Shown piece after piece: positions 16,060-48,565 of a stretch of 64,000 bases of DNA (within the stretch, counting starts at the first letter, position 1; the number at the start of each line of letters is the position of its first letter). The notes under the pieces were generated by a model. The model saw only the letters and a program-made list of their open reading frames with translations, searched no databases and was not told where the DNA came from. The position numbers and the translations under genes were made by a program. Source of the DNA: Diploptera punctata (lineage: Eukaryota > Arthropoda > Insecta > Blattodea > Blaberidae); assembly GCA_030220185.1 (NCBI GenBank), contig JASPKZ010005709.1:270001-334000 (forward strand), read 5' to 3'.

Positions 16060-16620
16060 TATTTTTTATTATTTCACTCACCTCATACTTCATAATTCAT
16101 AACAGATCCAGGGTTTCTTCACATCATTTGTGACATTCTCAATGCTGTGTCACGTTCACAACTGACGTCCAACGGCCTTCTATCCTGCAGACTGACCTCC
16201 GCGCCATCTGGTGGCTGACCGACGAATTTCCAAATCAGTCCTCTCTCCTTATAACCGGGTATTTCAAAATTCATAGTTGTATTTTCATTCTTGCATATGT
16301 AAATTTTTTCCCAAATTGTGAGTTCCTTCGGTTTTTCCAATTGTTTAAGTAATTTTGTTTTGGTTTCTATTCTATGTTTTTCTGACCAGGCATGTGCAGC
16401 TATTGCAGATTTTTCGGTTTCTCCATTTTTAACATTTCTGAGGTGTTCTTTTAATCTTGTATTTAGATTCCTTTTTGTTTTTCCTATGTATATCTTTTCA
16501 CAATCTTTACAATTAATTTCATAAATTCCCGATTTTTTGCAGTCTTCAATCTTTTCATTTTTGTTGGTTTTTATTAAATTACCTAAGCTGTAATCATTTT
16601 CGGTGCTAATTTAATGTTGA
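16060..16620 (-). pseudogene. Penelope-like element: GIY-YIG endonuclease end plus 3' tail
   Basis: The minus strand encodes GIYEINCKDCEKIYIGKTKR, NLNTRLKEHLRNVKNGETEK, SAIAAHAWSEKHRIETKTKL and LKQLEKPKELTIWEKIYICK. The …IYEI…YIGKTKR.L..R..EH…S..A.H pattern is the GIY-YIG nuclease domain found at the C-terminus of canonical PLE reverse transcriptases, where it acts in target cleavage. A frame change near 16330 breaks it. Downstream are the hammerhead-like core (16101-16146) and a GAGGTGAGTG box. The RT domain is missing. This locus links the non-coding hairpins elsewhere in the window to PLEs. Confidence 0.85.
16101..16146 (-). ncRNA. Hammerhead-like core, PLE tail
   Basis: Reads AGCA-TTGAGAA-TG-TCACA…TGTGA-A-GAA-ACCCTGGAT-C-TGTT. 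Stem I AGCA:TGTT (one G·U) and stem II TCACA:TGTGA are paired. The core has U3 and A8 instead of C3 and G8. Stem III is weak. Same family as 41919-41968. Probably a decayed ribozyme motif. Confidence 0.5.
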
Positions 16621-16639
16621 ATTTGATAATACTTGGATT

Positions 16640-16825
16640 TTAAAAACACTCAAACAATCACATGTCAAGGATGGGACCACAATGTTTGGTGAGAATCAGA
16701 AGAAATAGACAATCACATGGAAAGAAGAGTTCCGGAAGGCTTAAGAAAGTGGAGTGATTCCTGGACTGGAAACAACAGGCTAATAGCCTAAAAGGATGAT
16801 GAAGAAGAATTAATATACAGGGTGC
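16640..16825 (+). pseudogene. LINE relic
   Basis: Contains a GHGKKSSGRLKKVE-like stretch and ends TGATGAAGAAGAA, like other LINE 3' ends here. Heavily decayed. Family unknown. Confidence 0.35.
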
Positions 16826-17340
16826 AGCTTTTATTTATGATATGTTGACACAGTAAAATAATACTCTGCACTTTATAACATGACATTGATACCAACACGA
16901 AGCAACTGTTATGTTGGCATTACTGACTTCACCGCATTCTACATAACAACATACGCTTAACTCTAATATTGTCACAAATTGTTTTTTTTTTCCACTTCCT
17001 AAATTTTATATTTAAATATACTTATTATAATACTAAAATATCACAATAAACCACGTTGAGTACATTTCAAGACTATATTGTCTTTTTCTTGACTAGAAGA
17101 AAAAAATTGACTAAATATAATTAATTAAATTACAGATCTGATAATGTAGTTAAAAGAGAACACAAATTTCTTTTAATATCTTCATTAAAAAATAACATTT
17201 TTTATTGACAATAAAAGGTGTTTTATTTTTAGAATATTTCCTCATTATTTTACAGTATGAAAATATTTCATTTCATGTTCTATTAGTTATAACTAAGGTT
17301 AGGAATTTTATTAAATAAAAGATAAGAATGCAATGCTGTT
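16826..17340. other. Unassigned AT-rich sequence
   Basis: Begins with ACAGGGTGCAGCTTTTATTT, which resembles a transposon terminus, but no partner end was found. Nothing else is recognisable. Confidence 0.35.
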
Positions 17341-17344
17341 AGTA

Positions 17345-18420
17345 TATAAATAACACTGGTCAACAGTGGTTTTGTTGCCCTTGATATAAGATTAATTTCG
17401 GATATATTTATGCTCACAATTCATGAAACTATCAATGATTTTGGAAGATTTGCTCTGGTTTTTCTTTACACTACAAAAATCGGAAAATATGAAAAATATC
17501 ACATATATATTTATAATATCAATCGGTTTTTGAAAAATTAGTATGCACTGATGTAAATAGAAAGAAAAATATTGAAAATCCATGTTATACTTCAGTGAAA
17601 CGCCTTTTATAAGATTTTCTTCTATAATTTTTTAGGGGACAATCTCTTTTTAAAGACCAGCAGTAATCTGCCATCAAGTGACGGTACTATCTACCCTGAT
17701 ACCTTTCCTCCACTACTTTTAGATCCTAGTGAAAGCGCACAGCGCACTCCTGTTTGTTGCGCTATAATTTCCTAAATTATCTGGAAATCTATCCAGGTGC
17801 CCTCAGAATCTTGAAGCTTATCAACATGTTTTGCACAATTTCTTTATAATTTGGTGCTTTATAGTTATCTAGGAAATTTTCTACTACCAATACAAAACCC
17901 TTCCAAGCTTTACTTTCCGGAACAGTCATAACTTTGATAAAATTTACATCTTTCATCAATTGCCAAATTTGAGGACCATCAAATATTCCGCCTTTTAACT
18001 TTTACGTACTGAGCTTAGGAAATTTTCTACAAATGTATTTGAAAAATTTTCCTTCCTTGTCCAACGCTTTGACAAATTGTTTTATCACATCCAGATGCAC
18101 GTCGTGAGTACTTTAATTTTGTCAAATAACTGAGATCACGGCCGATGTGTGGAGGGAGGAGTGTGAGAGTGGGGATGATGTGATGTTTGTATTTGCAAAA
18201 AAATGCGCAGAAATCAAATCATGACTGGAAACATAAATTTTATTAGTAACAAACCATTTACTGTTTAAGATATAAGATACGCAAAAATCATAAAAACTAG
18301 AGCACATTCAGCACTTTCATGAATATGTTTTTAAACTGTGCACTTCAAAACATAGAAATTCGCTGAGACATCCAGGGCAACAAAAAAAATTTTTTTTTAT
18401 AGAGCTGTGTTATTCAGCTG
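17345..18420 (-). mobile_element. TIR-like element with conserved protein relic (HLDxFPxNLG … ERYQGR … MADYCW)
   Basis: The minus strand gives, in order across frames: FVKALDKEGKFFKYICRKFP, a KLKGGIFDGPQIWQLMKDVN-like run, FIKVMTVPESKAWKGFVLVV, NYKEIVQNMLISFK, HLDRFPDNLGNYSATNRSAL and VEERYQGR, a stop, then HLMADYCWSLKRDCP. The last motifs match the fragment at 5847-5960. The outer parts look like inverted ends: AATAACACTGGTCAACA … TTTTGTTGCCCTTGAT on the left, AATAACACAGCTC … TTTTGTTGCCCTGGAT read inward from the right. I infer a DNA transposon carrying this protein, with its function unknown and its frame destroyed. Confidence 0.55.
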
Positions 18421-18541
18421 TTTGTGTGTGGAGCTAAGATAAAAGAAAGTCAAGAGTCTAACTTCTCATTATACTATTCAACTGTCTGTGTGTGAAACCA
18501 AAACAAAAGACAGTCATAAGTCTAACTTCTCATTATACTAT
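18411..18541. repeat. Tandem duplication, period about 65 bp
   Basis: Two imperfect copies of a unit containing TGTGTGTG(G/A)A, AAAAGA(A/C)AGTCA and GTCTAACTTCTCATTATACT lie head to tail. Function unknown. Confidence 0.8.
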
Positions 18542-18617
18542 GTTGCAATCTTAACTTTTAGTACATAATAATCCTAGCTCTAGTTATAACAATAGAACAA
18601 TAGTTATTTATTCTTAA

Positions 18618-19589: not shown

Positions 19590-19819
19590 GATCGTAACAG
19601 GCCTTGGCCTAATACTTGGAAGGAAGAAGAAGAAGAAGAAGAAGAAGAAGAAAGAGGTCAGTGGTGGCTGGTGATGAAATTTTATGGGTATGCATCGACA
19701 TAGTCTCACAGACTAACACTCAAAAATGAAAAGTAAACCCAAAAGTGTATGTGTGTGTGTGTTTTAATGCCATCCTCTATATGTTCATGCTTTTGGTTCT
19801 TTGCTAGGCAGATTATTTA

Positions 19820-20172
19820 ATTTATTTAATTCCATGGCACGACAGGCCTAGAAGGCCCTTAGCCTACCAGCCGGCTGCTGGCCTCAAATCCACATGTGTC
19901 AATCACAGAGACAGATGATCATCTAGCCAGTGTAGGAGTGACATGTGGTCAGCATGTTGAATCCCCCAGCCGTTATAGCTGGTTTTCTTAACCTGGAGCT
20001 GCTACTTATTGTAGCTACCCAAATGCCTCATGATGCTGGTAGGTACCGGTCCCATACTGGCTGAAATACCATGAGAAAATTTCTTCCCCCATGGAGACTC
20101 GAACCAGCACAAGTCCTGTAGCTCTGCGCCAAGGCTTCCTACCTTAACCGCTCGGCTACGGCGCAGGACTTG
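19820..20172 (-). mobile_element. SINE S2 (tRNA-derived)
   Basis: On the minus strand it starts GCGCCGTAGCCGAGCGGTTA (A box of tRNA-Leu/Ser type), with TGCTGGTTCGAGTCTCC as B box. A body with GGGGGAAGAAATTTTCTCAT and AGCCGGCTGGTAGGC follows. Nearly full length compared with 58653-58999. Confidence 0.88.
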
Positions 20173-20904
20173 CTAGGCAGATAGATGGCATTAATGTGGT
20201 CTACTTTAAATTTATGCACCATTTCGGCAGACCACATTACGTAGATGATGTATTCTTGTACTGTGTAGAGAGAGGAGCGTAGGATGAGTGTATGTTTAAA
20301 GTAGATTCCCGGGCAATGAGCACAGGGTATCTAAAAAATATAAATTTATAATAATTTTCTTCTCATTAATCAATTACACATAAAAGCACATTAATTTTAA
20401 TTTATTAGGTGCAGCAGTGCACGCCGGGTATTAGATAGTATTTTTATGAAATTTGTGTAAGGTTTCTAATAAAAGAACTAGAAAATTGACGTGGGGAAGA
20501 AGCATTGTTTTGTTTTTGAAGCATGGTAAAAAAAATAACAATAAATAAGCGGAACAATGTTTTCCTGGCGAAGGAACGTCCTTTTAAAACCTTTTAACGG
20601 CGCTCTTCTGCTGCGGCAATAAAGGAGTTGGAAGGAGTTAGAATTTACTACATGATTTGGTAAGACTCTCTCAACTACATATGTCGATAGAGAGTTTCTG
20701 AACTTGTATGAACAGCATCAGAAAATAAAGTTTGCACAAGAAGTTTTCACCCAGCTATACAACCTTATGAGTTTATTTAAGGTATTATTCTAAAATAAAA
20801 CTAACCTAATTTAAAATATAAGTTTTATGATGATGTAGCCCTAAAAATGTGGGTATGTGTAGTGTAAAGTTTCCTGTGTGAGGGATGATGATGAAGACAA
20901 AGAA
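20173..20904. other. Unassigned
   Basis: No feature is supported. A short AT-rich stretch near 20330-20420 separates it from the PLE locus. Confidence 0.4.
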
Positions 20905-20970
20905 GACATGAAATGATCCATATTTGGTTCGTCTTCCGGGCTTATAGGCCGTGGTCTGGTTGTCTTCATA

Positions 20971-21011
20971 CTCAACGTTTCGTCTACTGCTGCGGTAGAC
21001 ATCATCAGGAG
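20971..21011 (-). ncRNA. Hammerhead-like core
   Basis: CTC-CTGATGA-T-GTCTAC(CGCAGCA)GTAGAC-GAA-ACGT-T-GAG. Stem I is CTC:GAG, stem II is six perfect pairs, and stem III is the self-complementary ACGT. The core matches CUGANGA…GAAA except for an extra U after A9. Cleavage triplet would be GUU. Confidence 0.55.
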
Positions 21012-21572
21012 ATACTGCGTGCTCTCTGTGAACTCCTCAACAGTCGGCTGCAGACTGGCTGGTCGTTGGAAACTGTCTCTCTGTTTATAGCTAAACCCCG
21101 GGTGGAGGGGGGGTTTTTTTCTCGCGCGGACCGAGTTATGCGCTGTCGTGCAGTTTGCAGAAGTCATAGGCTTTGTTGTTGTGTTATGCAGTGCTGGGAT
21201 CCAAATTTTGTTTATCTTTTGAACACTTGATGAACAACCAACAACATATTATAAGATTCGAAGATACTCAGGTATTATCACAAACATCACATTACTACAC
21301 CAGACTATACAGAGAAGCCATTGAAATATATAAACATAAGAATTCCTTCAACAAAAAAGAAGAAACCATGAAGATAAACAAAATTTGGATCCCAGCACTG
21401 CATAACACAACAACGAAGCCTATGACTTCTGCAAACTGCACGACAGCGCATAACTCGGTCCACGCAGAAAACCCCCCTCCACCCGGGGTTTAGCTATAAA
21501 CAGAGAGACAGTTTCCAACGACCAGCCAGTCTGCAGCCGACTGTTGAGGAGTTCACAGAGAGCACGCAGTAT

Positions 21573-21613
21573 CTCCTGATGATGTCTACCGCAGCAGTAG
21601 ACGAAACGTCGAG
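21573..21613 (+). ncRNA. Hammerhead-like core
   Basis: Mirror copy of the minus-strand motif: CTC-CTGATGA-T-GTCTAC…GTAGAC-GAA-ACGT-C-GAG, with a canonical GUC triplet. The stem III ACGT has no loop, so it would have to form between two molecules or two copies, as in dimeric hammerheads. Confidence 0.6.
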
Positions 21614-22377
21614 TATGAAGACAACCAGACCACGGCCTATAAGCCCGGAAGACGAACCAAATATGGATCAAGATGCCGGCCGTGAAAGCCTACAATTATA
21701 TATAAGACATGAAATGCCTAATCCTGTAGAAAACAGCAAGGGGATCACCAGGATAAATGTCCCCAAGCAATGGGCAAATTGCTATTAACAGCACCACTTG
21801 CCTTCTCAACATATGAACTGCATAGAGGTTTGCAGTTTAATGCAGGAATCTGGTGCACAATCTAACGATTAAAAATTTTATACCACCACCTTTCTTAGGC
21901 CCGAGATTCAAAATTTTACAATAAAATGAACTAAATTTAATTAATTAATAATTATGGTGAGTTTTTAAATCTAACTCAATTCATTAATTAAAATAAATGT
22001 CCTTTTAATATTAATGTAAATTAATTTTTTTTTTCCTCAGGGGTCCTCATCTAGGGGATATGTGGATGGCGACCACAAGGTGCCCAAGCTGAGCAAAAAA
22101 TTTCTTCCACTTACTTGTGTTTTGCACTCTTTTAACTTTACTATCTAACCTCTCTTGATTAACTCTTGTTTTTTTTCGACTCCGACGCTATTAAGGCATC
22201 CGAGGGGTAGGGAGTCTTTCCTTTCTTCTATTTCTTCTTTCCTTGATTTTCTTTTCTTCTCCAGAAAAGCCTGATCGGAGGCTATAAGATGGCAGCCCCA
22301 TCACTGGTCTTGCCTTCCTTTGGCAAGCAACCAATTGAAATGACTATTATTATGCTTGCAAGTCTTATACGCAAGAT

Positions 22378-22930: not shown

Positions 22931-23650
22931 AACCCTTTGTAGCGTGTAAATAGCTTCACCAACAAGTTTGTTGAAAGATTTATATACAGGATATATAAAA
23001 ACAACAGCATAACAGTATAAAAGGAACAAGGGGACTGAAGAACTGAATTACAAAATAAACTGTGAAATAAGAAACTCAAAGAAGAAAATTGAATATGTGT
23101 CTACAGTGGAATAAAATTGTGCATGAAATAAAGAATATTTGGGAAAATATATTGGTAATAACATTTCCGCCTTCCTATGGCTCTTACCATCCAATTCAGA
23201 ACCCTGACCTCCCCTTTTTTTTTTGGGGGTGGGTTAATTCTTAACTAATCTGATTTTTTATACATACCCTACCGATATAGTTTTTATAAATTTAACCAAA
23301 TATAAACACCAAAATAAGCCTCTCACAGTTGGGAAAAACAATCCAATATAAAAAAAAAGTTGGTTGATTCTAATCCTCGTAGAAATGGAGGACCAAGTAC
23401 ACACACTTTCGTCTGGGCCTTTTCAGTAACGGCTAACTAGTTTCGATGACATTTCACCCGATTTGTCTTATTATAAAGCATTACCAGTGGTGTAGAGTGG
23501 TCGCCGCTTCATACACTGGAGTTTGGATCTTCACATAGGATGCGAGAATGGAGGATGGGTTAGAAAATATTAATTGTATGCAAGTGTGCTGCCAAACAGT
23601 CCATCCTACAGCTCTGCTTCTTGGGTAGTCAGGGATTTGATTATTATTTT
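22931..23650. other. Unassigned
   Basis: Contains a T8/G-rich run near 23212-23232. No element or gene was recognised. Confidence 0.35.
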
Positions 23651-24270: not shown

Positions 24271-24760
24271 TGAAGTGTTGTTTGTTTCCTTTCACTAGTA
24301 TTGATTATAATTATTTATGTTTGTTTTTGACAAGTGAAATTAAATTTTGTTTGAGCTACTTTGTTTTATATTTGTTCTCTTTTTTGCTAGAAAAACAATA
24401 AAGTAAAATTAATTAATTCTCAAAAGTTAATTTGATTCAGAGCTTCATCGATCAATCAACAGATGGAGAAAGAAGCAGTGCTGCTGGATGACAGAACATT
24501 GTTCATGGAATTACTGATGATGAAACCACCTAAGTTTTGAAACCGGTCTAATTAGAAGATGGGGTATGAGGTGGGATGAAAAGAATATATTTTAAATTAT
24601 ACCTCACAGTAATATTTCCTATAATAGTTCAATATGAAAGCATAATTTAGCCATTTGCACATGTTCAGGATTTCAAATTTTTGCTTGTATCTAGAACTAA
24701 TTTAACTGTGAAATAATTGCAAACCTTGTTGGAAAAATAAGCTGTGATTTATTTTAAAAC
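24271..24760. other. Unassigned
   Basis: AT-rich, with no supported feature. Confidence 0.35.
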
Positions 24761-24761
24761 G

Positions 24762-25002
24762 AAAAATTAATGCTCGAACTGGGACTCGAACCCTGGATCT
24801 CTGACTCTGCGCAAGAATATGATACCAATTACACCATCCGAGCTCCAATACAAGTACCGGATGGTGTAATTGGTACCATACTGACATACCATTACACCAT
24901 CCGAGCTCCAATACGAACATCAGATGCTGTAATAGGTATCATACTGACATACAGAGTCAGAGATTTGGGTTCGAGTTTCGGCTCGAGTATTAATTTTTCT
25001 TT
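24762..25002. repeat. tRNA-like palindrome
   Basis: A minus tRNA-like copy (24775-24850; rc has GGTTCGAGTCCC) faces plus-strand tRNA-like sequence (24930-24990; GGGTTCGAGTTTCGG). Flanks are inverted GAAAAATTAATGCTCGA and TCGAGTATTAATTTTTC. The middle repeats the ATTACACCATCCGAGCTCCA segment twice (24830 and 24892). The A-box halves are scrambled, so these are not functional tRNAs. Confidence 0.65.
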
Positions 25003-25042
25003 CTAAAATAAAACTATGTCCAAATCTGGAAAGTGTTAATTT

Positions 25043-25948
25043 AAAATACACCACATCCATAAAGTCTTTCCAACATTACAACTTCTTATAAAATGAAAAT
25101 TATATAAAAGTTAGTATGATGATCATGAAGAAGGCTTCCAGGCTGTAGGCCATGGTCTTGAGGTTTGAAGTTCCCGGGCGTTTCATCAGAGACTGCGTCT
25201 GGCTCCTCGAGGTTGTCTTGAGGGCTTGAAGTTCCCCGGCGTTTTGCCAGAGACTGCGTCTGGCAACCTCAAGGGTTGTCTTGGGAGCTCAAGACAACCC
25301 ATGAGGATGCCGGATGTAGTCTCTGGCAAAATTTTGGGGAACTTCAAGTCTCAAGACTACAGCCCACAACCCGGAACCCTTCTTGATGATCATCATAATA
25401 ATTCCGGTGTGAAAGCCTAAATCAATACATATAAAAGTTAGAGTTGTGTGGTTTGTGGCAGATGAAAGACAAATTTTCAAAGTTTGTAAAGCTATGTCAG
25501 TGCACTTCCACATGTGCACCTCTTATCGCCTGCAAACATCTACGCGATATTCAATTTCTCGCCATACATATGCAGCATTTCTTGGGTGATGCTAGCAACA
25601 GCATCAGTTTTCCTTCTCAAAGTGTTCAAATCAGATACATGTGTTGCGTATACCCTGTCCTTTACATAACCCTAAAGAAAAAAATCTAGGGGGGTTATGT
25701 CTGGGGATCTAGTGGCCAGGGTGTTGCTAGCCTCACCCAAGAAATGCTGCATAATGTATGGTGAGAAATTGAATATAATTTAGATGTTTTGTGGGCAACA
25801 AAAGGTGTACACGTGGAAGTACACTGACATTGCTTTACAAATTTTGAGAGCTTGTCTTTCATCTGTCACAAAGCACACAACTCTAACTTTCATAGTTTCA
25901 TCTTATTAGAAGTCATATGTTGGAAAGACTTTATGGACACGGTGTATA
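25043..25948. mobile_element. Foldback TIR element containing a PLE tail
   Basis: Ends TACACCACATCCATAAAGTC and, inverted, TACACCGTGTCCATAAAGTC, followed by TTTCCAACAT on both sides. The arms continue inward as a long palindrome (GTTGTGTGGTTTGTGGCAGA opposed to TGTCACAAAGCACACAAC; CAGCATTTCTTGGGTGATGC opposed to GCCTCACCCAAGAAATGCTG). Removing the PLE insertion leaves about 580 bp. No transposase. It resembles a foldback or MITE derivative of a Tc1/mariner-like element. Confidence 0.65.
25115..25428. mobile_element. PLE-tail hairpin with 13-bp TSD
   Basis: ATATAAAAGTTAG at 25102-25114 and 25429-25441 flanks a 314-bp palindromic unit. Minus-strand copies of the tail occupy the left part, with the GTTTCATC/GTTTTGCC ends of cores at about 25180 and 25235. 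A plus copy (TGAGGATGCC…GGCAAAATTTTGGGG) occupies the right part, which ends GGTGTGAAAGCCTAAATC. It proves that such hairpins insert as discrete units. Cores here are degraded (GAAAC changed to CAAAA in the plus copy). Confidence 0.82.
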
Positions 25949-29899: not shown

Positions 29900-30057
29900 A
29901 TTGACGTAGACTTTCACGGCCGGAGTTGCTATGATGATCTTGAAGAAGATTTTCGGGCTACAATCCTTGAGGATGCCAGACACAGTCTCTGGCGAAACAT
30001 CGGGGAACTTCAAGCCTCAAGACCATGGCCTACAGCCCAAAAATCTTCTTCAAGATC
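29900..30057 (+). mobile_element. PLE tail, short inverted unit in a (TAA)n array
   Basis: Starts GACGTAGACTTTCACGGCCG, the conserved PLE end read in reverse. It turns over at about 29960 and continues through the hammerhead-like core (29964-30004) to CCCAAAAATCTTCTTCAAGA. The GATCTTGAAGAAGATTTTCG arm pairs with the right end. It is embedded between two TAA arrays, probably its insertion target. Confidence 0.75.
29964..30004 (+). ncRNA. Hammerhead-like core
   Basis: TCC-TTGAGGA-T-GCCAGA…TCTGGC-GAA-ACAT-C-GGG. Stem I TCC:GGG (with one G·U), stem II six perfect pairs. Stem III is damaged (ACAT instead of ACGT). Position 3 is U facing G8. Confidence 0.5.
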
Positions 30058-30913: not shown

Positions 30914-30955
30914 TCGAACATATGTTTCAGAGCTTCTTAGCCCCATCGTCAGCGA
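30914..30955 (-). ncRNA. Hammerhead-like core
   Basis: TCG-CTGACGA-T-GGGGCT…AGCTCT-GAA-ACATATGT-T-CGA. Stem I TCG:CGA; stem II with two G·U pairs; stem III ACATATGT is a perfect palindrome; triplet GUU. All core positions match CUGANGA/GAA apart from the extra U. Confidence 0.6.
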
Positions 30956-30976
30956 TTACAGCGATTGAGTCTGTAA

Positions 30977-31018
30977 TCGCTGAGGATGGGGCTAAAAAGC
31001 TCTGAAACATATGTTCGA
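30977..31018 (+). ncRNA. Hammerhead-like core
   Basis: Opposite arm of the same hairpin: TCG-CTGAGGA-T-GGGGCT(AAAA)AGCTCT-GAA-ACATATGT-T-CGA. N7 differs (G versus C) while the invariant core is kept. Confidence 0.6.
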
Positions 31019-32929: not shown

Positions 32930-33415
32930 GTAAAGAGAAACATTTTTTGCCTGAACTGGGAATTGAACCCCAAACCTTCAGCCTTCTGGGCTGATGCTCT
33001 GACCACTGAGCTAATTCAGGCTACATTCCCAAAAGGGAGGATTTATGCTTGGATGGGAATGTAGCCTGAATTAGCTCAGTTGTCAGAGCTTCAGCACGGA
33101 AAGCTGAAGGTTCGGGGTTCAATTTCTGGTTCAGGCAAAAATGTTTCTCTTTTTAAAATACAATAGGAAGTAACATTAAGAGGTTTGTTTAATAAATAAA
33201 ACATTTTGTCTGTTCATTCTTACCTCTTAGAGTTGTTTTTGTCAAACATGTTTCAGAGCTTCTTAGCCCCATTGTCAGCCATTACAGACTGAATTTTCTC
33301 ATGTTGTCGGCCCTGATTCTTGATTCTAGCTCTCTTTGCAGGAATCAAGAAACAGGGCTAACAAGCTCTAAAATATGTTCGACAAAACAACTCTAAGAGG
33401 TAAGAATTTCTCTTT
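32930..33415. mobile_element. tRNA-like pair plus PLE-tail hairpin
   Basis: The minus tRNA-like (32940-33024) and plus tRNA-like (33062-33138) copies face each other; the plus copy reads GAATTAGCTCAGTTGTCAGA … GGTTCGGGGTTCAATTTC. Then CAATAGGAAGTAACATTAAG and AGGTTTG lead into a PLE hairpin: minus core (33241-33281) and degraded plus arm ending ACTCTAAGAGGTAAGAATTT. The flanks GAGAAACATTTTT(T)GCC and GGCAAAAATGTTTCTC extend the tRNA acceptor stem. Confidence 0.72.
33241..33281 (-). ncRNA. Hammerhead-like core, decayed
   Basis: CTGACAA-T-GGGGCT…AGCTCT-GAA-ACATGT-T. G8 is A, and stem I is not paired. Sister of the 30914 and 30977 cores. Confidence 0.4.
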
Positions 33416-33816: not shown

Positions 33817-33860
33817 CGATACCAGTTTCAAAAGTATTTTGTTACTTTCGTCTTCAGTCA
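33817..33860 (-). ncRNA. Hammerhead-like core
   Basis: TGA-CTGAAGA-C-GAAAGTA…TACTTTT-GAA-AC(TG)GT-A-TCG. Invariant CUGANGA and GAA are intact. The inserted base after A9 is C. Stem I TGA:TCG (one G·U); triplet GUA. Confidence 0.5.
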
Positions 33861-33953
33861 ATGTCAAACTCCAGCTCACTGACCGAAGATGAAAGTAAAA
33901 GAATACTTTTGAAACTGGTATTGTGAAAAGACACAACTTTATGGAGTGAGATA

Positions 33954-36700: not shown

Positions 36701-36761
36701 TTTTTATTATTAATTTAACACTTCTCATAGAAGGATAAATTATATTTGAAGAGAAAAATTT

Positions 36762-36838
36762 TCGCCTAGACCGGGATTCGAACCCGGGACCCTTGGCTTT
36801 CCGGGCCAAGTGCTCTACCAACTGAGCTACCGAGGCGA
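36762..36838 (-). tRNA. tRNA-like segment (non-canonical)
   Basis: A cloverleaf can be drawn: acceptor TCGCCT(C)/(T)AGGCGA, D arm GCTCAGTTGGTAGAGC, T arm CCGGGTTCGAGTCCCGG. The anticodon arm is odd: CTTGGC/GCCAAG with loop CCGGAAA, so U33 is C, and counted with the normal five pairs the loop is nine bases. Not a credible decoding tRNA; more likely a tRNA-derived module of a mobile element. Confidence 0.5.
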
Positions 36839-37253
36839 GTTACGATCTAGACGCAAATTTTTCTCTTATGTACGTTGTAATTCCCTCGCGCCAAATGCTT
36901 GAAACCATAGCTTCTATCTTTGCAAATGGCGGCTTCTTAGTTAAGAAGACATTTATTGGGAATTTAACACTACTTTATAGCCAGTAGGGCTTCTATTAAC
37001 GATTTTTATTATTAATTTAACACTTCTCATAGAAGGATAAATTATATTTGAAGAGAAAAATATGAGAAGTGTTAAATTAATAATAAAAATCGTCAATAGA
37101 AGCCCTACTGGCTATAAAGTAGTGTTAAATTCCCAATAAATGTCTTCTTAACTAAGAAGCCGCCATTTGCAAAGATAGAAGCTATGGTTTCAAGCATTTG
37201 GCGCGAGGGAATTACAACGTACATAAGAGAAAAATTTGCATCTAGATCGTAAC

Positions 37254-37330
37254 TCGCCTCGGTAGCTCAGTTGGTAGAGCACTTGGCCCGGAAAGCCAAG
37301 GGTCCCGGGTTCGAGTCCCGGTCTAGGCGA
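37254..37330 (+). tRNA. tRNA-like segment (non-canonical)
   Basis: Plus-strand twin of 36762-36838 with the same unusual anticodon arm. Both A-box and B-box words are intact, so RNA polymerase III could in principle start here. Confidence 0.5.
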
Positions 37331-37428
37331 AAATTTTTCTCTTCAAAAACAAAAATAAAACTTATAACTAATTATATTATTTTTGGTCTGGACATCTTAC
37401 CTCAATATTAATGTTGATTTGTTCTTGG

Positions 37429-37464
37429 ACATGTTTCAAAACAATTCTGTTTTATCGTCAGCTT
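37429..37464 (-). ncRNA. Hammerhead-like core
   Basis: CTGACGA-T-AAAACA(GAAT)TGTTTT-GAA-ACATGT-C. Stem II six pairs, stem III palindromic ACATGT, triplet GUC. Stem I is not paired beyond one base. Confidence 0.5.
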
Positions 37465-37489: not shown

Positions 37490-37525
37490 AAGCTGACGAT
37501 AAAACAGAATTGTTTTGAAACATGT
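37490..37525 (+). ncRNA. Hammerhead-like core
   Basis: Opposite arm, identical core and stems to 37429-37464. Confidence 0.5.
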
Positions 37526-37612
37526 CCAAGAACAAATCAACATTAATATTGAGGTAAGATGTCCAGACCAAAAATAATATAATTAAAATAACCTCAAAAT
37601 ATAACTTCCTAA

Positions 37613-38068
37613 AACTAAATATTAAACTTATAACTCTCCAAATCAGTTTTGGGTTCATACGAAGATCTCCAAATTTTGAGTTCAAGAACAACTTTTACTT
37701 TCAAAATTAATATTACTTTGTGTGAAAAAAAATTAAACATAAAAATGAAATTTTATTCGTAATAATTGCACTTCATGACCCTAAGAGAATAAAATAATAG
37801 CATTTATGAGAACTCTTGTTTAAATTAATAAATAATTTGTCTTGTTCAGTTTACTACACTGTTTCACTCTAAGGAAACTCACACTTTGATAAATTTATAA
37901 TTCAAGCATTGTCAAACTTAAACTGTTGTTTGTTCACTCATATGATGCACTGAACACTGAACATCAAGTTTTTTTTTTTCTTTTTACTTTGAAGTTTTTC
38001 ATCTGTTGATCATATGTTACACTGGTATACAACAATCCAGAAAAAACATCTTGTGAATCATCAAAACT
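37613..38068. other. Unassigned AT-rich sequence
   Basis: No supported feature. Confidence 0.35.
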
Positions 38069-40275: not shown

Positions 40276-40626
40276 TTAGTGTCCAGTGTATCAGATGAGT
40301 CATTAATCATAGTTTATATATGATAGTGTTTGAAATATAAATTTATAAAATGTAACTTTCTATAGAGACGGAATACAATGAAGATTGTAATAACTGGATT
40401 CAGAACATAACATTGCAAAGTAAACTCACCATGGAGGACTTATATTTGCGTTGAATTACTTGACGTGTCTTCGGATCTGTAAAACAAAGAATTCCATTTC
40501 ATTATAAAGAATGTAATACATAATATATCAGGAGTGGAGATAAATTTTGACAAAAGTGTAACAATGAAAAAATTCATGTATTTTATGTCTTTCGGGGTAA
40601 ATGGCCATGGTCTGGTTTTAATAACA

Positions 40627-40667
40627 CTCAACGTTTCGTCTACTACTGCAGTAGACATCCTCAGGAG
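40627..40667 (-). ncRNA. Hammerhead-like core
   Basis: CTC-CTGAGGA-T-GTCTAC…GTAGAC-GAA-ACGT-T-GAG. Stem I CTC:GAG, stem II six pairs, stem III ACGT, triplet GUU. Confidence 0.58.
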
Positions 40668-40752: not shown

Positions 40753-40793
40753 CTCCTGAGGATGTCTACTGCAGTAGTAGACGAAACATTGAG
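40753..40793 (+). ncRNA. Hammerhead-like core
   Basis: Opposite arm. Same stems I and II, but stem III is ACAT, so this copy has lost a pair. Confidence 0.5.
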
Positions 40794-40959
40794 TGTTAAT
40801 AAAACCAGACCACCACCATTTAGCCCGAAAGACATAAAATACATGAATCAAGACACCTGCCGTGAAAGTCTACAATTTTACAATGAAAAAATTAGTAAGC
40901 AGTTCTCAGCAATAAAGGAAATTAATGTGATGGACATATAATAAAAGAAGTCAAAATAT

Positions 40960-41165
40960 TAAAATTCATCGGAGAACATATTGTTTAAACAACTCACCTC
41001 ATAGGATTCATGCTTCCATGATATCGCGATTTCAAACATAATCATGTTCATCGTCAGCCATAACTCCGACTGATGAATCCTATGAGGTGAGTTGTTTAAA
41101 CAATATGTTCTCCGATGAATTTTAATGATTATACCTCATAATGTTTACTTCCCAACATTAATTAA
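40960..41165. mobile_element. PLE-tail hairpin, asymmetric
   Basis: AACAACTCACCTCATAGGAT on the left opposes ATCCTATGAGGTGAGTTGTT on the right. The right arm has lost most of the core (CTGATGAATCC). Beyond it the sequence runs through GTTCTCCGATGAATTT to ATACCTCATAATGTTTACTT and CCC, the conserved end. Confidence 0.78.
41016..41064 (-). ncRNA. Hammerhead-like core, well formed
   Basis: GTTATGG-CTGACGA-T-GAACAT(GATT)ATGTTT-GAA-ATCGCGAT-A-TCATGG. Stem I has about six pairs (including G·U), stem II six pairs, and stem III the palindrome ATCGCGAT with A15.1-U16.1. Triplet AUA. This is one of the most complete hammerhead layouts in the window. Confidence 0.65.
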
Positions 41166-41224
41166 ATATAAGTCAAAATATGTTTATATTTAGGAAGCAA
41201 ATAATAAATATAAAAATATCCTCA

Positions 41225-41535: not shown

Positions 41536-41689
41536 AGAAAGTAAATTTGTTTCAAAATGAATGAAAAAAAAAAATGTACCCAAAGAATCCAAGAAATTGG
41601 TGGTGGTAGTAGAAGTAAGCCCTTACATCTCTCAATGGCACTTAGGCATTCTCCCTCTCAGGGGAGAAATTCAACTACCTGTATACTAA

Positions 41690-42011
41690 GTTAAGTTATG
41701 TAGATAGGAAATAACACTATGAGGTTTTTTAATATTGTTTATTTTTTATTATTTCACTCACCTCATACTTCGTAATTCATAGCAGACCCTGGGTTTCTTC
41801 ACAAATTTTGTGACATTCTCAATGCTGCGTCACGTTCACAACAACTTCACAAGTTGTGAACGTGACACAGCATTGAGAATGTCACAAAATTTGTGAAGAA
41901 ACAAGTTGTGAATGTGACGCAGCATTGAGAATGTCACAAAATTTGTGAAGAAACCCAGGGTCTGCTATGAATTACGAAGTATGAGGTGAGTGAAATAATA
42001 AAAATAAACAA
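41690..42011. mobile_element. PLE-tail hairpin with 14-bp TSD
   Basis: TACCTGTATACTAA at 41676-41689 and 42012-42025 flanks 322 bp. The unit starts near AGGAAATAACACTATGAGGT, the conserved end read backwards. It contains one minus and two partial plus copies of the tail seen at 16060-16150, and ends GTATGAGGTGAGTGAAATAA. It is the cleanest evidence that a multi-copy inverted PLE tail integrates as a unit. Confidence 0.88.
41919..41968 (+). ncRNA. Hammerhead-like core with U3-A8
   Basis: AGCA-TTGAGAA-TG-TCACAAA…TTTGTGA-A-GAA-ACC(CAG)GGT-C-TGCT. Stem I AGCA:TGCT (two more pairs beyond a mismatch), stem II seven pairs, stem III ACC:GGT with a three-base loop, triplet GUC. C3 and G8 are replaced by U3 and A8, which can still pair. 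Confidence 0.6.
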
Positions 42012-42025
42012 TACCTGTATACTAA

Positions 42026-43194: not shown

Positions 43195-43870
43195 GATTGT
43201 GTACCTGTTGTGGCAGTCGTCCTCAACAAATTATATTTGTATAAATATTCAGTTAGGACTTTTGGAACTGGTTCCATTTTCGAAAGCTGTTCATTGGGTA
43301 CTGATTTTGTTCAACACAATAGAAAACTCCCTCTTAACAACGCAAAGAGAAAATGATAACAGAAAAATAAACATCTTAGAAGAAATAGAAATCATAAAGC
43401 AAGCAAGAAATGATAACCTGCTGAACGAGAACACGCCCTACCAGATCAACCCATTATACAATATATTCGTTAAACGAAACCAGTACCCAATGAACAGCTT
43501 TGAAAATGGAACTGGTTCCAAAAGGCCTGGCTGAATATTTTATTTTTCTTTCTTTCTTCTTCTTCATGGTTTAGGCTTATTTACTAGCCTGTTCCGGTTC
43601 CAAATTGCTGCTCTTTCCATCTTTTCCTTGGTCTTCCCAAACTTCTTCTTCCTCGTGGTGAATAGTCATCCTTGCCAAGTGTTCTTTCCAGTTTGTTCTG
43701 TATTTCTCTATTGTTGTGTTTAATTCCTCTACTTTTAGTTGATGTCTTATTTCTGGGTTGTTATTTTATACAAATATAATTTGTTGAGGAAGACTCCCAC
43801 AACAGGTACAAAATTATATTGTATTTTAAATATTAACAATAATCTCAATGGAACAAAATACCAAGTAGCA
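43195..43870. mobile_element. PLE tail with C-terminal coding, split by a LINE relic
   Basis: Left minus tail (CTGTTGTGGCAGTCGTCCTC, degraded core) faces a plus copy with coding: NTIENSLLTTQRENDNRKIN, ILEEIEIIKQARNDNLLNEN, TPYQINPLYNIFV, which resembles the last residues of PLE polyproteins. Then a degraded core (TTGAAAATGGAAC…GTTCCAAAAG). LINE relic sequence (about 43553-43765) interrupts before ACAAATATAATTTGTTGAGG and CCACAACAGGTAC. Sister tail at 48640-48800. Confidence 0.65.
43553..43765 (-). pseudogene. LINE relic inserted in PLE tail
   Basis: Begins at the left with a TTCTTTCTTCTTCTTC run (a GAA tail on the minus strand). The minus strand has PRKKKFGKTKEKMERAAIWN, a basic C-terminal-type stretch. 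Family not assigned. Confidence 0.45.
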
Positions 43871-44215: not shown

Positions 44216-44329
44216 GTTAATTTCCGATCGCCGAATGTTACTAACATTTGCTCGATCATGCAAATGGCGGCTTCTTGTTTAAGAAGACATTTATTGGGAA
44301 TTTAAACACTACTTTATTATTATTATTTA

Positions 44330-44525: not shown

Positions 44526-45121
44526 AGTTAAAATTGGGAAACACATTATGAGGTTCTTAATTTATAAATTAATGAGTCATTTTAACATCTTACCTCATAT
44601 TTCCTGTTTTATCAAACACGGTAACTATAGTTTTCAAATGATCTTGTCATTCATTTCAACTGCCATTATGACTACCGGATATTCGTTGGAATCTCCCTCT
44701 ATAACGTTGCCATCTGGTGTTGATTTGACGAACTTCGAGATATCGTTGCCATCTGGTATTGATTTGATGAACTTCGAGATGAGGTCACGTTCATCCGGAA
44801 TGTCAAAATTCATAGATTTAAATTTGTTCTTCTGTATAAATATTTTCTCCCAAACTGTCAAATCCAAAGGTTTTTCCAAATGTTTTAGAAGTTTAGCTTC
44901 TTTTTCAATTCTATGACCTTCCAACAAACAGGAAAAACAAAAAGAAATTTGGACACTCGCACAAAGGAACACTTTAGAAATATTAAAAATGGTGAAATTG
45001 AAAAATCAGCTATTGCAGCACATAGTTTGTTGGAAGGTCATAGAATTGAAAAAGAAGCTAAACTTCTAAAACATTTGGAAAAACCTTTGATTTGACAGTT
45101 TGGGAGAAAATATTTATACAG

Positions 45122-45435
45122 TAAAAGTAAAAGTAAAAGTAAAGTGATCCCACAACAGACCCGGAGGCCCTTGGGGTAGTAGGAGGTTAGGGCTCCCACT
45201 TTTTCTAGACAATCGGCACTTTATGTCAGCCGGTTGTCAGCCCTGCGTGACGGCCGTCTTTACCCCCAGAACAAGCATCTGGTACTCATTTCCGTTAGAG
45301 GCTGAGTCGACCCCAGGGCCATAGTGCCGCCAGAGGGTTTGGGTCAGTTTAAAAATCCTGACCCCAACGGGACTTGAACCCTCGACCCTCCGGCTTGTAG
45401 ATCAGTGCCTTAACCACTACGCTACGGCGTGCCCC
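45122..45435 (-). mobile_element. SINE S1 with 16-bp TSD
   Basis: GAAAATATTTATACAG at 45106-45121 and 45436-45451. Full-length minus copy: head GGGGCACGCCGTAGCGTAGT and GGTCGAGGGTTCAAGTCCC, tail (ACTTTT)n. Best reference copy of the family in this window. Confidence 0.95.
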
Positions 45436-45619
45436 GAAAATATTTATACAGAAGAACAAATTTAAATCTATGAATTTTGACATTCCGGATGAACGTGACC
45501 TCATCTCGAAGTTCATCAAATCAATACCAGATGGCAACGATATCTCGAAGTTCGTCAAATCAACACCAGATGGCAACGTTATAGAGGGAGATTCCAACGA
45601 ATATCCGGTAGTCATAATG

Positions 45620-45666
45620 GCGGTTGAAAATGAATGACAAGATCATTTGAAAACTATAGTTACCGT
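45620..45666 (+). ncRNA. Hammerhead-like core with U3-A8
   Basis: GCGG-TTGAAAA-T-GAATGA(CAAGA)TCATTT-GAA-AACTATAGTT-A-CCGT. Stem I GCGG:CCGT (one G·U), stem II six pairs, stem III a 10-nt palindrome. U3 and A8 replace C3 and G8. Confidence 0.6.
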
Positions 45667-45760
45667 GTTTGATAAAACAGGAAATATGAGGTAAGATGTT
45701 AAAATGACTCATTAATTTATAAATTAATATTGAGGTAAGATGATCGGACTAAAAATAATA

Positions 45761-46085
45761 TAACTACTTTATAAACCCAGTAGGGTTTCTTTCAATGTTT
45801 TTATTATTAATTTAACACTTTTCATCGAAGGATAATTATATTTGAAGAGAAAAATTATACACTCAGACTGGGGTTTGAACCCAGGACCTTTGGCTTATTT
45901 TGTGTTTTTCAGCCTAAAACTGATTTGTATATTGGAAAATATTTGTAATATTACAGAGTAGTGATACTTACTGTATTCTTCAAGTACGAATATTCCTCCC
46001 TTTTGAGTAAAACACTTGCGGATGTGGTCGAGTCGCACAAAGAACTGAAATAAACACAACAACTTTAAACAAAACCCTGGTTACA
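45761..46085. repeat. Truncated tRNA-like cassette and spacer
   Basis: 45770-45895 repeats the cassette's leader (CTACTTTATAAACCCAGTAG, TTTGAAGAGAAAAATTATAC, ACTCAGACTGGGGTTTGAAC) but stops in the T-arm region. 45900-46085 holds nothing I recognise. Confidence 0.55.
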
Positions 46086-46089
46086 ACAT

Positions 46090-46780
46090 TTACAAGCTTA
46101 TATTTGAAGAGAAAAATTCATGCGTACACTGGGGTTTGAACTCAGAACCTTTAGCTTTATATGTTAATGCTCTACCATCTGAGCTATCCTAAGCCTCCAA
46201 ATGTAAAGGCAAATTTTTCTCTTATACATTTCAATTGCCAAGAGCGCCAAAGGCTACAAACCATTGCTCAACACATAACAAGCTTTAATAGTGAATAGAG
46301 AACATATTTTTAACGACTCACCTCATATAATTTCAAATTTCTTTGATACCGGCGGTATCTTGTCTGTATCAAAGAAATTTGAAATTATATGAGGTGAGTC
46401 GTTAAAAATATGTTCTCCACTCACTATTAATGATATAACCTCATAATGTTTACTTCCCAATATTAATTTAAATATAATTAGCTGCTTCTTTATAAAGCCA
46501 ATAGATCTTCTTTCAATGTTTTTATTATAAATTTAACATTTCTCATTGATTCCCATTAAAAATCTTCTTAAATAAGAAGCCGCTATTTGTGTGCTTACAG
46601 CCTTGGGAACTGAAATGTATGAGAGAAATATTTGCATTTAGATTAGAGACCTAGGATTGCTCAGGTAGTAGGGCATTAGTGTATATAACTAAAGGGACTG
46701 GGTTCAAACCCCAGTCTAGGCATTATATTTTTCTCTTCAAATATAATTTGTCCATCAGCGAAAAATCTTAAATTTATAAT
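46090..46780. mobile_element. Palindrome: tRNA-like cassette / PLE hairpin / tRNA-like cassette
   Basis: Minus tRNA-like at about 46116-46195 (rc GCTCAGATGGTAGAGCATTA, GAGTTCAAACCCC) and plus tRNA-like at about 46655-46725 (GGGTTCAAACCCCAGTC) flank an inner hairpin. In that hairpin CTCACCTCATATAATTTCAA opposes TTGAAATTATATGAGGTGAG. The inner hairpin lacks a complete core. It shows the tRNA-like and PLE-tail modules combined in one symmetric structure. Confidence 0.75.
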
Positions 46781-47008
46781 AAAAACATTTACAAGCATAT
46801 TTCCCAAACTGTATGACATTACAATTATTTGCAACTATAATTATTAATATATTTTGCATTTTTGTAATATTAATCCGCCCTGATTATAAAAGCTAATATA
46901 ATGAATTCAAATGCTTCATGATTGCCATAAAATATCTGTAGCTCAGAAATCTAGATTCACAATTTCCATAATTCACAGGAGGGAGAATTTACTACTTTGT
47001 ACCACTAA
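46781..47008. other. Unassigned spacer
   Basis: AT-rich, no feature supported. Confidence 0.3.
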
Positions 47009-47240
47009 GGCTGGTATTCAAGAACAAAGTTTTCCGTGAAGAGCAACTCTTAGCCCGTCTCTCCGTGGTTAATTATGAGGGTCATGCAGAACCTACTCTA
47101 ACTGGCTCACTCTATTCAACATCATGTGCTAACAAGATATTTATTTAAAAAAATTCTGGGAACAATTGAAAGATGAGAGCCTCAGCTTACGGAAGAAGAA
47201 GATGTCATGGCCTAGAAAGCTTGGTTCTTGAATACTGGTC
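47009..47240. mobile_element. 232-bp MITE, TAA TSD
   Basis: TAA at 47006-47008 and 47241-47243. Inverted ends GGCTGGTATTCAAGAACAAA and, from the right, GACCAGTATTCAAGAACCAA. TWA duplication and GG ends suggest a PIF/Harbinger-type MITE distinct from the GGGTCG family. No ORF. Confidence 0.82.
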
Positions 47241-47558
47241 TAAGTGATATTGGAGTTACAGCGGCTTTTATACAAGCCTAAATTAGCATTAATAAAGATG
47301 AGAGTTACTACTTTTATCTTCAAATAGATATCTTTCTTGTGATTAATACTACATCAAATCACTGGAAATAGAGTTACAACTCTTGACCTCTGAAGTACAG
47401 ACATGTATACACCATGAGAAGGACCAACACTACCAATAAGAAATTGTTACAAATCAAAAGCTAATAAAGTTATTGTAACATTGTTGTTGCAAAACATAGA
47501 TAAACTCAATAAGTTTTATGGTGACAACAATGAAATTGAATTTTTATACAAAAAAATC
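47241..47558. other. Unassigned
   Basis: Contains a tRNA-like-looking stretch near 47370-47425 that is too weak to call. Otherwise AT-rich. Confidence 0.3.
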
Positions 47559-47621
47559 ACTATGAGGCTTAATTTAAGATTGAATTAAAATACTTCACAC
47601 TTCATCTCATATCCAGTCTTC

Positions 47622-47670
47622 TAATTAGACTGCAGTTTCAAAGCTTTGGCAGCTTCATCTTCATTAATTA
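47622..47670 (-). ncRNA. Hammerhead-like core with 6-bp stem I
   Basis: TAATTA-ATGAAGA-T-GAAGCT(GCCAA)AGCTTT-GAA-ACTGCAGT-C-TAATTA. Stem I six pairs, stem II six pairs (one G·U), stem III palindrome ACTGCAGT, triplet GUC. Only C3 (here A) departs from the core. Confidence 0.62.
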
Positions 47671-47827
47671 CTCATCGACTGATGTTATGTCTATCCGAAG
47701 AACTGATTCTTCTTCCCTTTGTTGGTGGACTGATAAATCTCTGGATCTAATCAGAATCAGCAGGAATTTTGAAAATGAATGAGTAATTTTTTAACATCTT
47801 ACCTCATATTTTATGTTTCTTCAAACA

Positions 47828-47871
47828 CGGGAACTAGTTTTCGAGAGAAGGATCTCTCTCATTTTCAACCG
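47828..47871 (-). ncRNA. Hammerhead-like core with U3-A8
   Basis: CGG-TTGAAAA-T-GAGAGA…TCTCTC-GAA-AACTAGTT-C-CCG. Stem II is six perfect pairs of different sequence from its sister at 45620-45666. Stem III palindrome AACTAGTT, triplet UUC, stem I CGG:CCG. Confidence 0.6.
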
Positions 47872-48149
47872 ACATTATGACTACCAGATTTTCGTTGGAA
47901 TCTCCTGTCAATAATGTTGGCATCTGGTATTGATTTCTTCTCTCGAAAACTAGTTCCCGTGTTTGAAGAAACATAAAATATGAGGTAAGATGTTAATAAA
48001 GACTCATTAATTTACGAATTAAGAACCTCATAATGTTATTTCCCATATTTAACTATGATGGAATTTTAAAGTTCATAAGTTTTTCTTTCTTAAGAATTAA
48101 ATGAATCGTGATTTCTTCTTACCTCATACTTCTATGTTTTTTTAAACAC

Positions 48150-48192
48150 AGCACTGCAGTATCAGCGACCCATTGTCACCATCCTCAGCTGT
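48150..48192 (-). ncRNA. Hammerhead-like core, decayed
   Basis: CTGAGGA-T-GGTGAC…GTCGC then TGATAC where GAAAC is expected. Core 5' part and stem II are present; the GAA part is lost. Confidence 0.35.
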
Positions 48193-48515
48193 TTTCAGTC
48201 GTGAATGGGTCGCTGATACTGCAGTGCTGTGTTTAAAAAAACATACAAGTATGAGGTAAGATTCATTTAATTCTTATGAATTTAACCTCATAATGTTAAA
48301 AATTCCCAAATTTAATATATAAATTTTTCTTTCTTGTTTATTTTAATGTGGATTTTTTCCCAAACCATGAGTTCTTTTTGTTTTTCTATTTGTTTAATTA
48401 GTGGTTTATGAACTTCGAAATTTCCACGGATTCTGATTGGATCCGGAGGTTCATCGGTCCACCAACAGAGATAAGAAGAAGTAGTTCTTCTCATCAATGT
48501 AACATCAGTCGATGA

Positions 48516-48565
48516 GAAATTATTGAAGATGAAGCTGTCCAGGCTTTGAAACCGTAGCCTACTTA
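48516..48565 (+). ncRNA. Hammerhead-like core
   Basis: Sister of 47622-47670: AAATTA-TTGAAGA-T-GAAGCT(GTCC…)GGCTTT-GAA-ACCGTAGC-C-TACTTA. Stem II keeps pairing through a U·G. Stems I and III are weakened. Confidence 0.48.

Follow-up and report, generated by a model that had tools for sequence, protein, structure and literature searches.

Do the inverted hairpins in a stretch of cockroach DNA share one hammerhead ribozyme, and which element brought it there? The question is raised by a window of 64,000 nucleotides from Diploptera punctata (contig JASPKZ010005709.1, positions 270,001 to 334,000; positions below count from its first letter), which has about 36% G+C and is crowded with retrotransposon fragments. 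A reading made from the letters alone (the sequence-only reading) had noticed one hammerhead layout recurring between 16101 and 48565, with an extra base after core position A9, and had attributed it to Penelope-like elements (PLEs). We conclude with good confidence that these sites represent minimal type I hammerheads in the pseudo-long terminal repeats (pLTRs) of about ten PLE families, mostly present as short 5'-truncated insertions of two inverted pLTRs with outward tails. This degree of confidence covers identity and insertion structure, for which the sequence itself provides the core, the stems, the extra base, an endonuclease link in three families, a tail hairpin, flanking direct repeats and a tail confined to one arm.

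A hammerhead-like core with one extra base

Both strands of the window were scanned for stem I of at least three pairs, xTGAxxA, k extra bases, stem II of at least five pairs, GAA, a stem III of the form A...U, H, and the second strand of stem I (strict scan). The pattern imposes GAA, A15.1-U16.1, H17 and stem pairing beforehand, and leaves core positions 3 and 8 free. Thirteen matches were obtained with one extra base after A9 (k=1) and none with k=0 or k=2. In a canonical hammerhead stem II starts directly after A9; this was the case in none of the 13, one base intervening each time. The extra base was U in 12 and C in one (F4a, whose opposite arm F4b in the same inverted repeat has U), in agreement with the "nearly always U" of the sequence-only reading. 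Apart from that base, eight of the 13 carried CUGANGA...GAA with A15.1-U16.1 and H17 (seven with extra U, one with extra C), and the remaining five left the consensus core, four by U3-A8 and one by A3.

One hundred first-order Markov windows produced in total 4 matches at k=1, 11 at k=0 and 8 at k=2. The control with permuted cores is important because the region is palindrome-rich. Whereas the exact core matched the real sequence eight times at k=1 and never at k=0, 2 or 3, 179 permuted core orderings on the same sequence gave, summed, one match at k=1, one at k=2 and two at k=3. The degenerate core with three extra bases had two real matches, one being 47828-47871 read in an alternative register and the other, at 23089, apparently noise. 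In a looser scan neutral to k, the top 14 sites all had one extra base and scored at least 35, the best of five control windows reaching 34.5; they comprised 12 of the 13 strict matches (F2, at 24509, was missed), 40753 and 48148. Nine lower rows (30-34) fell in the control range, namely F12 at 29964, its relatives at 25234 and 25298, F4b, F6c and four others; the sites at 43495, 24107, 48410 and 34387 were taken as chance. With scores within that range, F4b and F6c were retained for their kinship to F4a and F6a, and F12 for its likeness to F1 by eye, blastn giving no link between F12 and F1 at E 1e-4. Most sites are arms of inverted repeats, so that independent cases are fewer than sites. The copies, with their family labels, are as follows.

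20971-21011, minus strand: F1a hammerhead, CTGATGA+U, stem I CTC:GAG, stem II GTCTAC:GTAGAC, stem III ACGT; strict scan
21573-21613, plus strand: F1b hammerhead, other arm of the F1a inverted repeat; strict scan
20914-21670: F1 inverted repeat, hammerhead copies facing outward; 13-bp direct repeat 20903-20915 / 21704-21716
40627-40667, minus strand: F1c hammerhead, CTGAGGA+U; 14-bp direct repeat 40561-40574 / 40880-40893; strict scan
40753-40793, plus strand: F1d, arm opposite F1c; looser scan
24509-24553, plus strand: F2 hammerhead, CTGATGA+U, stem III ACCGGT, followed by a tail hairpin; strict scan
30914-30955, minus strand: F3a hammerhead, CTGACGA+U, stem III ACATATGT; strict scan
30977-31018, plus strand: F3b hammerhead, arm opposite F3a; strict scan
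33242-33281, minus strand: F3c, decayed copy with G8A; tail hairpin TAAGAGGT:ACCTCTTA
33817-33860, minus strand: F4a hammerhead, CTGAAGA+C, stem III ACTGGT; strict scan
33880-33923, plus strand: F4b, arm opposite F4a, extra base U, U4C; looser scan
41016-41063, minus strand: F5 hammerhead, CTGACGA+U, stem III ATCGCGAT; 12-bp direct repeat 40948-40959 / 41170-41181; strict scan
41781-41826, minus strand: F6a hammerhead with U3-A8, TTGAGAA+U, G.A at the base of stem II, stem III ACCCAGGGT; strict scan
41921-41966, plus strand: F6b, arm opposite F6a; strict scan
41676-42025: F6 insertion including 14-bp direct repeats 41676-41689 / 42012-42025; only the left arm has the tail motif
16101-16146, minus strand: F6c copy, overlapping the 3' end of an endonuclease frame; looser scan
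45620-45666, plus strand: F7 hammerhead with U3-A8, TTGAAAA+U, stem III AACTATAGTT; strict scan
44557-45727: F7 inverted repeat with endonuclease fragments inside; the core copy of the left arm is one A short
47622-47670, minus strand: F8a, hammerhead-like, ATGAAGA+U, stem III ACTGCAGT; strict scan
48517-48565, plus strand: F8b, arm opposite F8a, TTGAAGA+U
47828-47871, minus strand: F9 hammerhead with U3-A8, TTGAAAA+U, stem III AACTAGTT; codons match the C-terminus of the Diploptera protein P0008
48148-48192, minus strand: F10, hammerhead-like, CTGAGGA+U, GAT instead of GAA, G at position 17; looser scan
37425-37464, minus strand: F11 copy, CTGACGA+U followed by A10.1 (AUA), stem I of 1 bp
37490-37529, plus strand: F11 copy, other arm; 12-bp direct repeat 37358-37369 / 37624-37635
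29964-30004, plus strand: F12, hammerhead-like, TTGAGGA+U (U3.G8); score inside the control range
44619, and 44416 and 44455: further labelled copies, of F7 and F11 respectively

The hammerhead layout and the quoted stems were found by the strict scan at all seven places that had been put forward as best cases (21573-21613, 30914-31018, 41016-41064, 41919-41968, 45620-45666, 47622-47670 and 47828-47871). The CTGANGA core ascribed to them is present in three. Instead, 41919-41968, 45620-45666 and 47828-47871 read TTGANAA, with positions 3 and 8, which pair, both changed, and 47622-47670 reads ATGAAGA. Some copies are decayed, such as the copy at 48148 with GAT and G17, which is probably dead, or F11 with its 1-bp stem I. 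The estimate of about ten families depends on the cut. We use 12 labels; over 60 bases upstream and 120 downstream, identity is 82% between F7 and F9 and 71% between F2 and F8, the remaining families are linked over stretches of 23-98 nt, and blastn at E 1e-4 merges the copies into five groups via short common pieces. Decayed relatives of F12 also lie in a palindrome at 25234-25338, apparently with one further tandem copy of the core region.

Base pairing and model searches

Among nine family representatives, positions 3 and 8 are C-G in five, U-A in three (F6, F7 and F9) and A-G in one (F8a); F10 and F11, outside this set, have C-G. Between the sister families F7 and F9, two pairs of stem II have changed on both sides and still pair (A-U to G-C and U-A to A-U). 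Over the nine families, 105 of 107 cells were paired and 37 had changed on both sides, against shuffle means of 68 and 11, and none of 2000 shuffles reached the observed values; these sequences had been pre-selected for pairing, a bias for which we give the test little weight. The F7/F9 changes and positions 3-8 are less biased support. As to the claim that pairing is kept while sequence changes, the stems differ between families and stay paired, though the scan itself had demanded their pairing, and positions 3-8 form C-G or U-A in eight of nine.

Curated Rfam hammerhead models gave no match at gathering threshold, nor any up to E 10, across the window. When three loci were rescanned singly against Rfam, F2 alone matched (RAGATH-1-hammerhead, 12.3 bits, E 7.5). 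A covariance-model search, as the sequence-only reading had proposed, was performed with a model of our own (R3) built from five sequences (F2, F3, F4, F5 and F8); MAFFT alignments had placed F1 and F6 wrongly. R3 recovered second copies and, among unseeded families, F10 at E 9e-4, F11 at 0.012-0.015 and F7 at 0.8. The motif appears common to the families, which seem too divergent for one small model.

Endonuclease coding and a conserved tail

Descent from PLE ribozymes, as originally proposed, agrees with the coding context. Endonuclease coding lies directly upstream of the ribozyme, and runs into it, in three families (F6, F7 and F9); none was found for the other families.

16119-16610, minus strand: GIY-YIG endonuclease, C-terminal PLE part, PF01541 at E 9.6e-8; stop codon inside hammerhead stem II

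In F6c this frame stops within stem II, and nearly the same residues terminate its relative P0001. The best relative of the F6c endonuclease fragment is a Diploptera punctata protein, 93% identical over the whole query. Stem II also holds the end of the F7 endonuclease frame, recognised by P0003 and P0008. For F9, the 24 C-terminal residues of P0008 match, at 88%, the frame that crosses the ribozyme, which indicates that a Diploptera copy codes through the same core. No PLE reverse transcriptase (RT) was seen beside these truncated copies, and the two RVT_1 matches scanned (18618 and 8603) are not joined to any hammerhead copy. The F1 reading frame used as protein query gave no homologue, and F1 is also without the tail motif; insertion structure alone ties this family to PLEs. 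Searches for the PLE DNA in other hosts gave no match in viral contigs (by protein, alignment and F1 pattern) or prokaryote contigs (by alignment). At 16099-16209, residues 208-244 of an annotated Diploptera punctata protein, P0025, match the antisense of the F6 ribozyme region, indicating that at least one PLE end has been annotated there as a host protein.

Behind the ribozyme, GAGGT lies 46-58 nt past A9 in F2, F3a, F3c, F4a, F5, F6, F7, F8b, F9, F10 and two F11 copies; F1, F3b, F4b, F8a, F12 and a third F11 copy lack it or have it at another place. In full tails it is followed downstream by the motif ACCTCATARTGTTAYTTCC, with nine matches at up to three mismatches and 0.09 expected.

24601-24619, plus strand: F2 tail motif, 3 mismatches; 3' strand of the tail hairpin
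41707-41725, minus strand: F6 tail motif ACCTCATARTGTTAYTTCC; 3' strand of the second hairpin
48025-48043, plus strand: F9 tail motif, right arm

Tail strands 28-39 nt apart pair and change jointly (TATGAGGT:ACCTCATA, TAAGAGGT:ACCTCTTA, TTGAGGT:ACCTCAA), and a partner strand was found in 9 of 22 copies. We infer a second conserved hairpin behind the ribozyme in most families. The alternative that GAG/GTRAG after the ribozyme serves as a splice donor was considered; the hairpin is preferred, since GAGGT pairs with ACCTC and changes along with it.

Structure of the insertions

Direct repeats of at least 12 nt flank 7 of the 14 inverted repeats tested, compared with 22 of 2000 random pairs. Their lengths are 13 (F1), 14 (F1c), 12 (F5), 14 (F6), 12 (F7), 12 (F10) and 12 nt (F11); that of F10 is of low complexity, and F7 and F10 additionally show a longer repeat of other origin. 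The tail motif (at most 5 mismatches in 19, F8 and F10 having exactly 5) is present on a single arm in 11 of 14 inverted repeats, on neither in three (F1, F1c and F3) and on both in none. In F1, F1c, F5, F6, F7 and F11 the longer arm extends 31-43 nt past the inverted part to the direct repeat. Most insertions are pLTR-only and measure 125 bp to 1.2 kb.

In nine families 19-26 nt separate the predicted cut from the GAGG or GAGA behind it, the distance being 25 nt in F7 and F9. Arms starting at this cut site were looked for and not found in F1c, F3, F4, F5, F6, F9, F10 and F11. They start upstream of it by 19 nt in F9, 22 in F10, 43 in F4, 44 in F3, 45 in F11, 57 in F6 and 79 in F1c; one F5 arm starts 11 nt downstream, and the F1 and F8 arms reach more than 140 nt upstream. 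A possible exception is a ribozyme-free pair.

46285-46430: inverted pair without ribozyme, tail start TATGAGGTGAG; both arms start 25 nt before GAGG

Because the arms of eight palindromes do not start at the cut site, the RNA copied into the short insertions would have been mostly uncut, which agrees with a report from Anolis that uncut RNA is the main insertion substrate (PMC11167929). Each palindrome may have arisen from two cDNAs started at two neighbouring RT sites; self-priming (PMC3846280) is the rival. A TATGAGGT:ACCTCATA hairpin with two end points could set the two RT starts, giving one long and one short tail per insertion.

A third, partial F6 copy lies in the F6 palindrome at 41853-41902. 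It breaks off in the ribozyme, at GAAAC and ahead of stem III, where it meets the upstream end of the next copy, as if RT had jumped template near, not at, the cut site. The F9 and F10 palindromes are nested inside the F8 inverted repeat (47574-48613), and the F7 direct repeat sits within an F11 copy. Palindromes at 36740-37352, 32932-33152, 46098-46746 and 24748-25012 contain tRNA-like sequences. Each arm of the first three has one, facing outward, and towards its centre the palindrome at 36740-37352 also has other sequence, about 195 nt of it. A 2.5-kb palindrome at 56124-58652, 97% identical, carries two inverted transposase frames that we take to be mariner-like.

Proposed dimer cleavage and a possible start codon in the core

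In seven of nine families (F1, F2, F3, F5, F7, F8 and F9) stem III consists of a palindrome of 4-10 nt without a loop; the exceptions are F4, ACTGGT with G-U, and F6, ACCCAGGGT with an odd centre. Such a stem can close at most two or three pairs as a hairpin and can pair fully between two RNAs. A palindromic stem III too short to close well in the monomer, as reportedly found in the dimer-cleaving PLE variants of Lunse and colleagues (2017), is present here. Two RNAs would pair through stem III and then be cut after H17, a mode that we consider rather probable. Of 11 minimum free energy homodimers predicted, four (F6, F7, F9 and F10) had stems I and III formed between the two RNAs together with a stem II hairpin in each.

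A9, the extra base and G10.1 together read AUG in 19 of 23 scored copies. In all nine representatives A6 is the -3 base, and the cut lies 26-30 nt behind A9-U-G. The AUG is in the endonuclease frame in F6 and out of frame in F7 and F9, and is retained in all three. The ribozyme would sit at the junction of open reading frame (ORF) and pLTR, the extra U after A9 creating an A9-U-G10.1 start codon with A6 at -3, and translation starting inside the catalytic core would make folding and initiation compete. This proposal is bold and unproven, and we give it somewhat less than an even chance. Wider still, and rather doubtful, is the idea that hammerhead core and start codon form one object across about ten cockroach families, and probably in Anolis too, each transcript being either mRNA or cut RNA while the tail hairpin sets two RT starts. 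An in-frame UGA at U11.1-G12-A13 (F2, F4, F7, F8 and F10) was considered as a designed mini-ORF and rejected, five of the eight families with U11.1 being not clearly more than one third.

Alternative explanations

Several results weigh against the interpretation given above. The stem tests, both the scans and the covariation shuffle, drew on sequences chosen for their pairing; the 3-8 pair is broken or weakened in other copies (C-A in F3c, U-G in F8b and F12). R3 reaches one unseeded family (F10) at E<0.01, does not report F1, F6, F9 or F12 up to E 10, and gives E 0.12 and 0.16 to two sites taken as noise. No direct repeat of at least 12 nt was detected at F3, F3c, F4, F8, F9, the second F11 pair or 46285-46430. 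For the uncut template, the arms of 46285-46430 start 25 nt before GAGG, as far from it as the cut is in F7 and F9, so that this pair may derive from cut RNA; one case proves nothing. For the dimer, homodimers of F1, F2, F5, F8 and F12 formed no double hammerhead, and those of F3 and F4 did so partially. For the start codon, the three F11 copies read AUA and F4a reads ACG, and in F2, F4, F6, F7, F8 and F10 a frame opened at the AUG meets a stop within 5-7 codons. Finally, the Anolis ribozyme PAc cut in vitro only with its protein, and its mutation left insertion unaffected (PMC11167929).

These results have to be set beside four other explanations. Chance likeness to a hammerhead among transposons resembling miniature inverted-repeat transposable elements, or among assembly fold-backs, would suit a palindrome-rich window in which several palindromes lack the core and Rfam mostly gives miRNA-like hairpins; it is nevertheless very improbable, as permuted cores produced one match per 179 patterns against eight real ones, endonuclease coding adjoins in three families, the tail is one-sided between arms, and half of the repeats lie inside flanking direct repeats. 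C/D-box snoRNA-like elements are more improbable still. Box C is UGAUGA and box D is CUGA; the hammerhead core resembles box C, and the Rfam model sR22 matches F2 at E 0.011 and F1b at 0.3, both below the cut-off. However, its score is 21 bits where gathering demands 40, three stems with GAA-A..U-H are foreign to C/D RNAs, and the U3-A8 families are without the box. That the copies are dead relics, functionless 5'-truncated debris of PLEs whose ribozyme was active in an ancestor, has an even chance: they are short inverted-pLTR insertions or fragments, with broken cores in F3c, F4b, F7b, F10 and F11. Among the 13 strict matches, on the other hand, seven are consensus but for the extra U, one has an extra C, and four have compensated U3-A8. 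A dead copy still records a live ancestor, and relics are compatible with PLE hammerheads of the kind proposed here.

With the PLE hammerheads retained, the extra U may also be non-coding, inherited structurally from one ancestor or serving to lower the cleavage rate, with an incidental AUG; this is as probable as its opposite. G10.1 is common in hammerheads, F11 retains the extra U yet loses the AUG (AUA), F4a has C, and one extra base is found in 13 of 13 strict matches. In a viroid hammerhead, an additional core base is reported to weaken cleavage and to be tied to infectivity (PMC11014351). Against a non-coding U, the ORF of the Anolis PLE starts at this place (PMC11167929), and the AUG is retained across differing endonuclease frames (F6 versus F7 and F9). 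A start codon is plausible, and a common ancestor with a harmless U also explains the data; the two stand about even.

Comparison with known systems

A review calls the in vivo role of minimal PLE hammerheads a mystery (PMC7761336). If the fixed extra base does make an AUG, this role could be tested directly by asking whether a transcript is translated or cleaved. Initiation by ribosomes and folding of the ribozyme would in that case be mutually exclusive, and the element would choose for each transcript between mRNA and (dimer-cut) RNA. For biochemistry, the set supplies cores with natural U3-A8 and many stems that differ from one another. As the Rfam hammerhead models report none of these copies, hammerhead counts in animal genomes would be too low.

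Precedents exist for every single oddity (PLE hammerheads, short stem III, U3-A8, the viroid extra base); their fixed combination in about ten families was not found in the literature searched, which did not include two primary PLE papers. De la Pena and Flores (2001) reportedly described a viroid extra base after A9, an A. A viroid hammerhead with an extra core nucleotide is in print (PMC11014351), and the extra base is less unusual than the sequence-only reading had taken it to be. Given this precedent, one extra core base marks a variant that keeps its class membership; the host there is a viroid, whereas here many retrotransposon families carry the base, as U. Pairing of C3 with G8 is known, and a natural, identical compensatory U3-A8 was reported earlier (Perreault et al. 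2011, PMC3088659); here three PLE families at a single locus have it along with the extra base.

Lunse, Weinberg and Breaker reportedly described in 2017, going by the title, small PLE-associated hammerhead variants that cleave as dimers. The PLE link, small size and dimers are shared as far as that title tells, the present families having a palindromic stem III suited to dimers, and the consensus of those variants could already hold the extra base. PLE hammerheads (Cervera and De la Pena 2014) are type I and minimal, with little or no helix III, and lie in pLTRs (PMC6155905, PMC7761336, PMC7229834). Ours are alike in type, minimal form and site; the extra base after A9 is present in all strict matches here, and no description of it in PLE hammerheads was found in the literature searched, which excludes the Cervera 2014 and Lunse 2017 alignments.

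In PAc, of the Poseidon element of Anolis carolinensis, the start codon lies at the start of stem II and the cut 26 bp downstream (PMC11167929). This spacing compares with 26-30 nt after A9-U-G here, in a different host and different families. The enzyme of the Anolis element cuts both strands, extends them and in vitro starts RT at two neighbouring sites, which palindromes with a long tail on one arm and a short one on the other would fit (PMC11167929). The Penelope of Adineta vaga has inverted pLTRs, head-to-head palindromes, target duplications of 8-10 bp and an optional 31-bp tail on one inverted pLTR (PMC3846280). The pattern in Diploptera is alike, whereas the insertions are mostly pLTR-only, the extension measures 31-43 nt and the direct repeats 12-14 bp.

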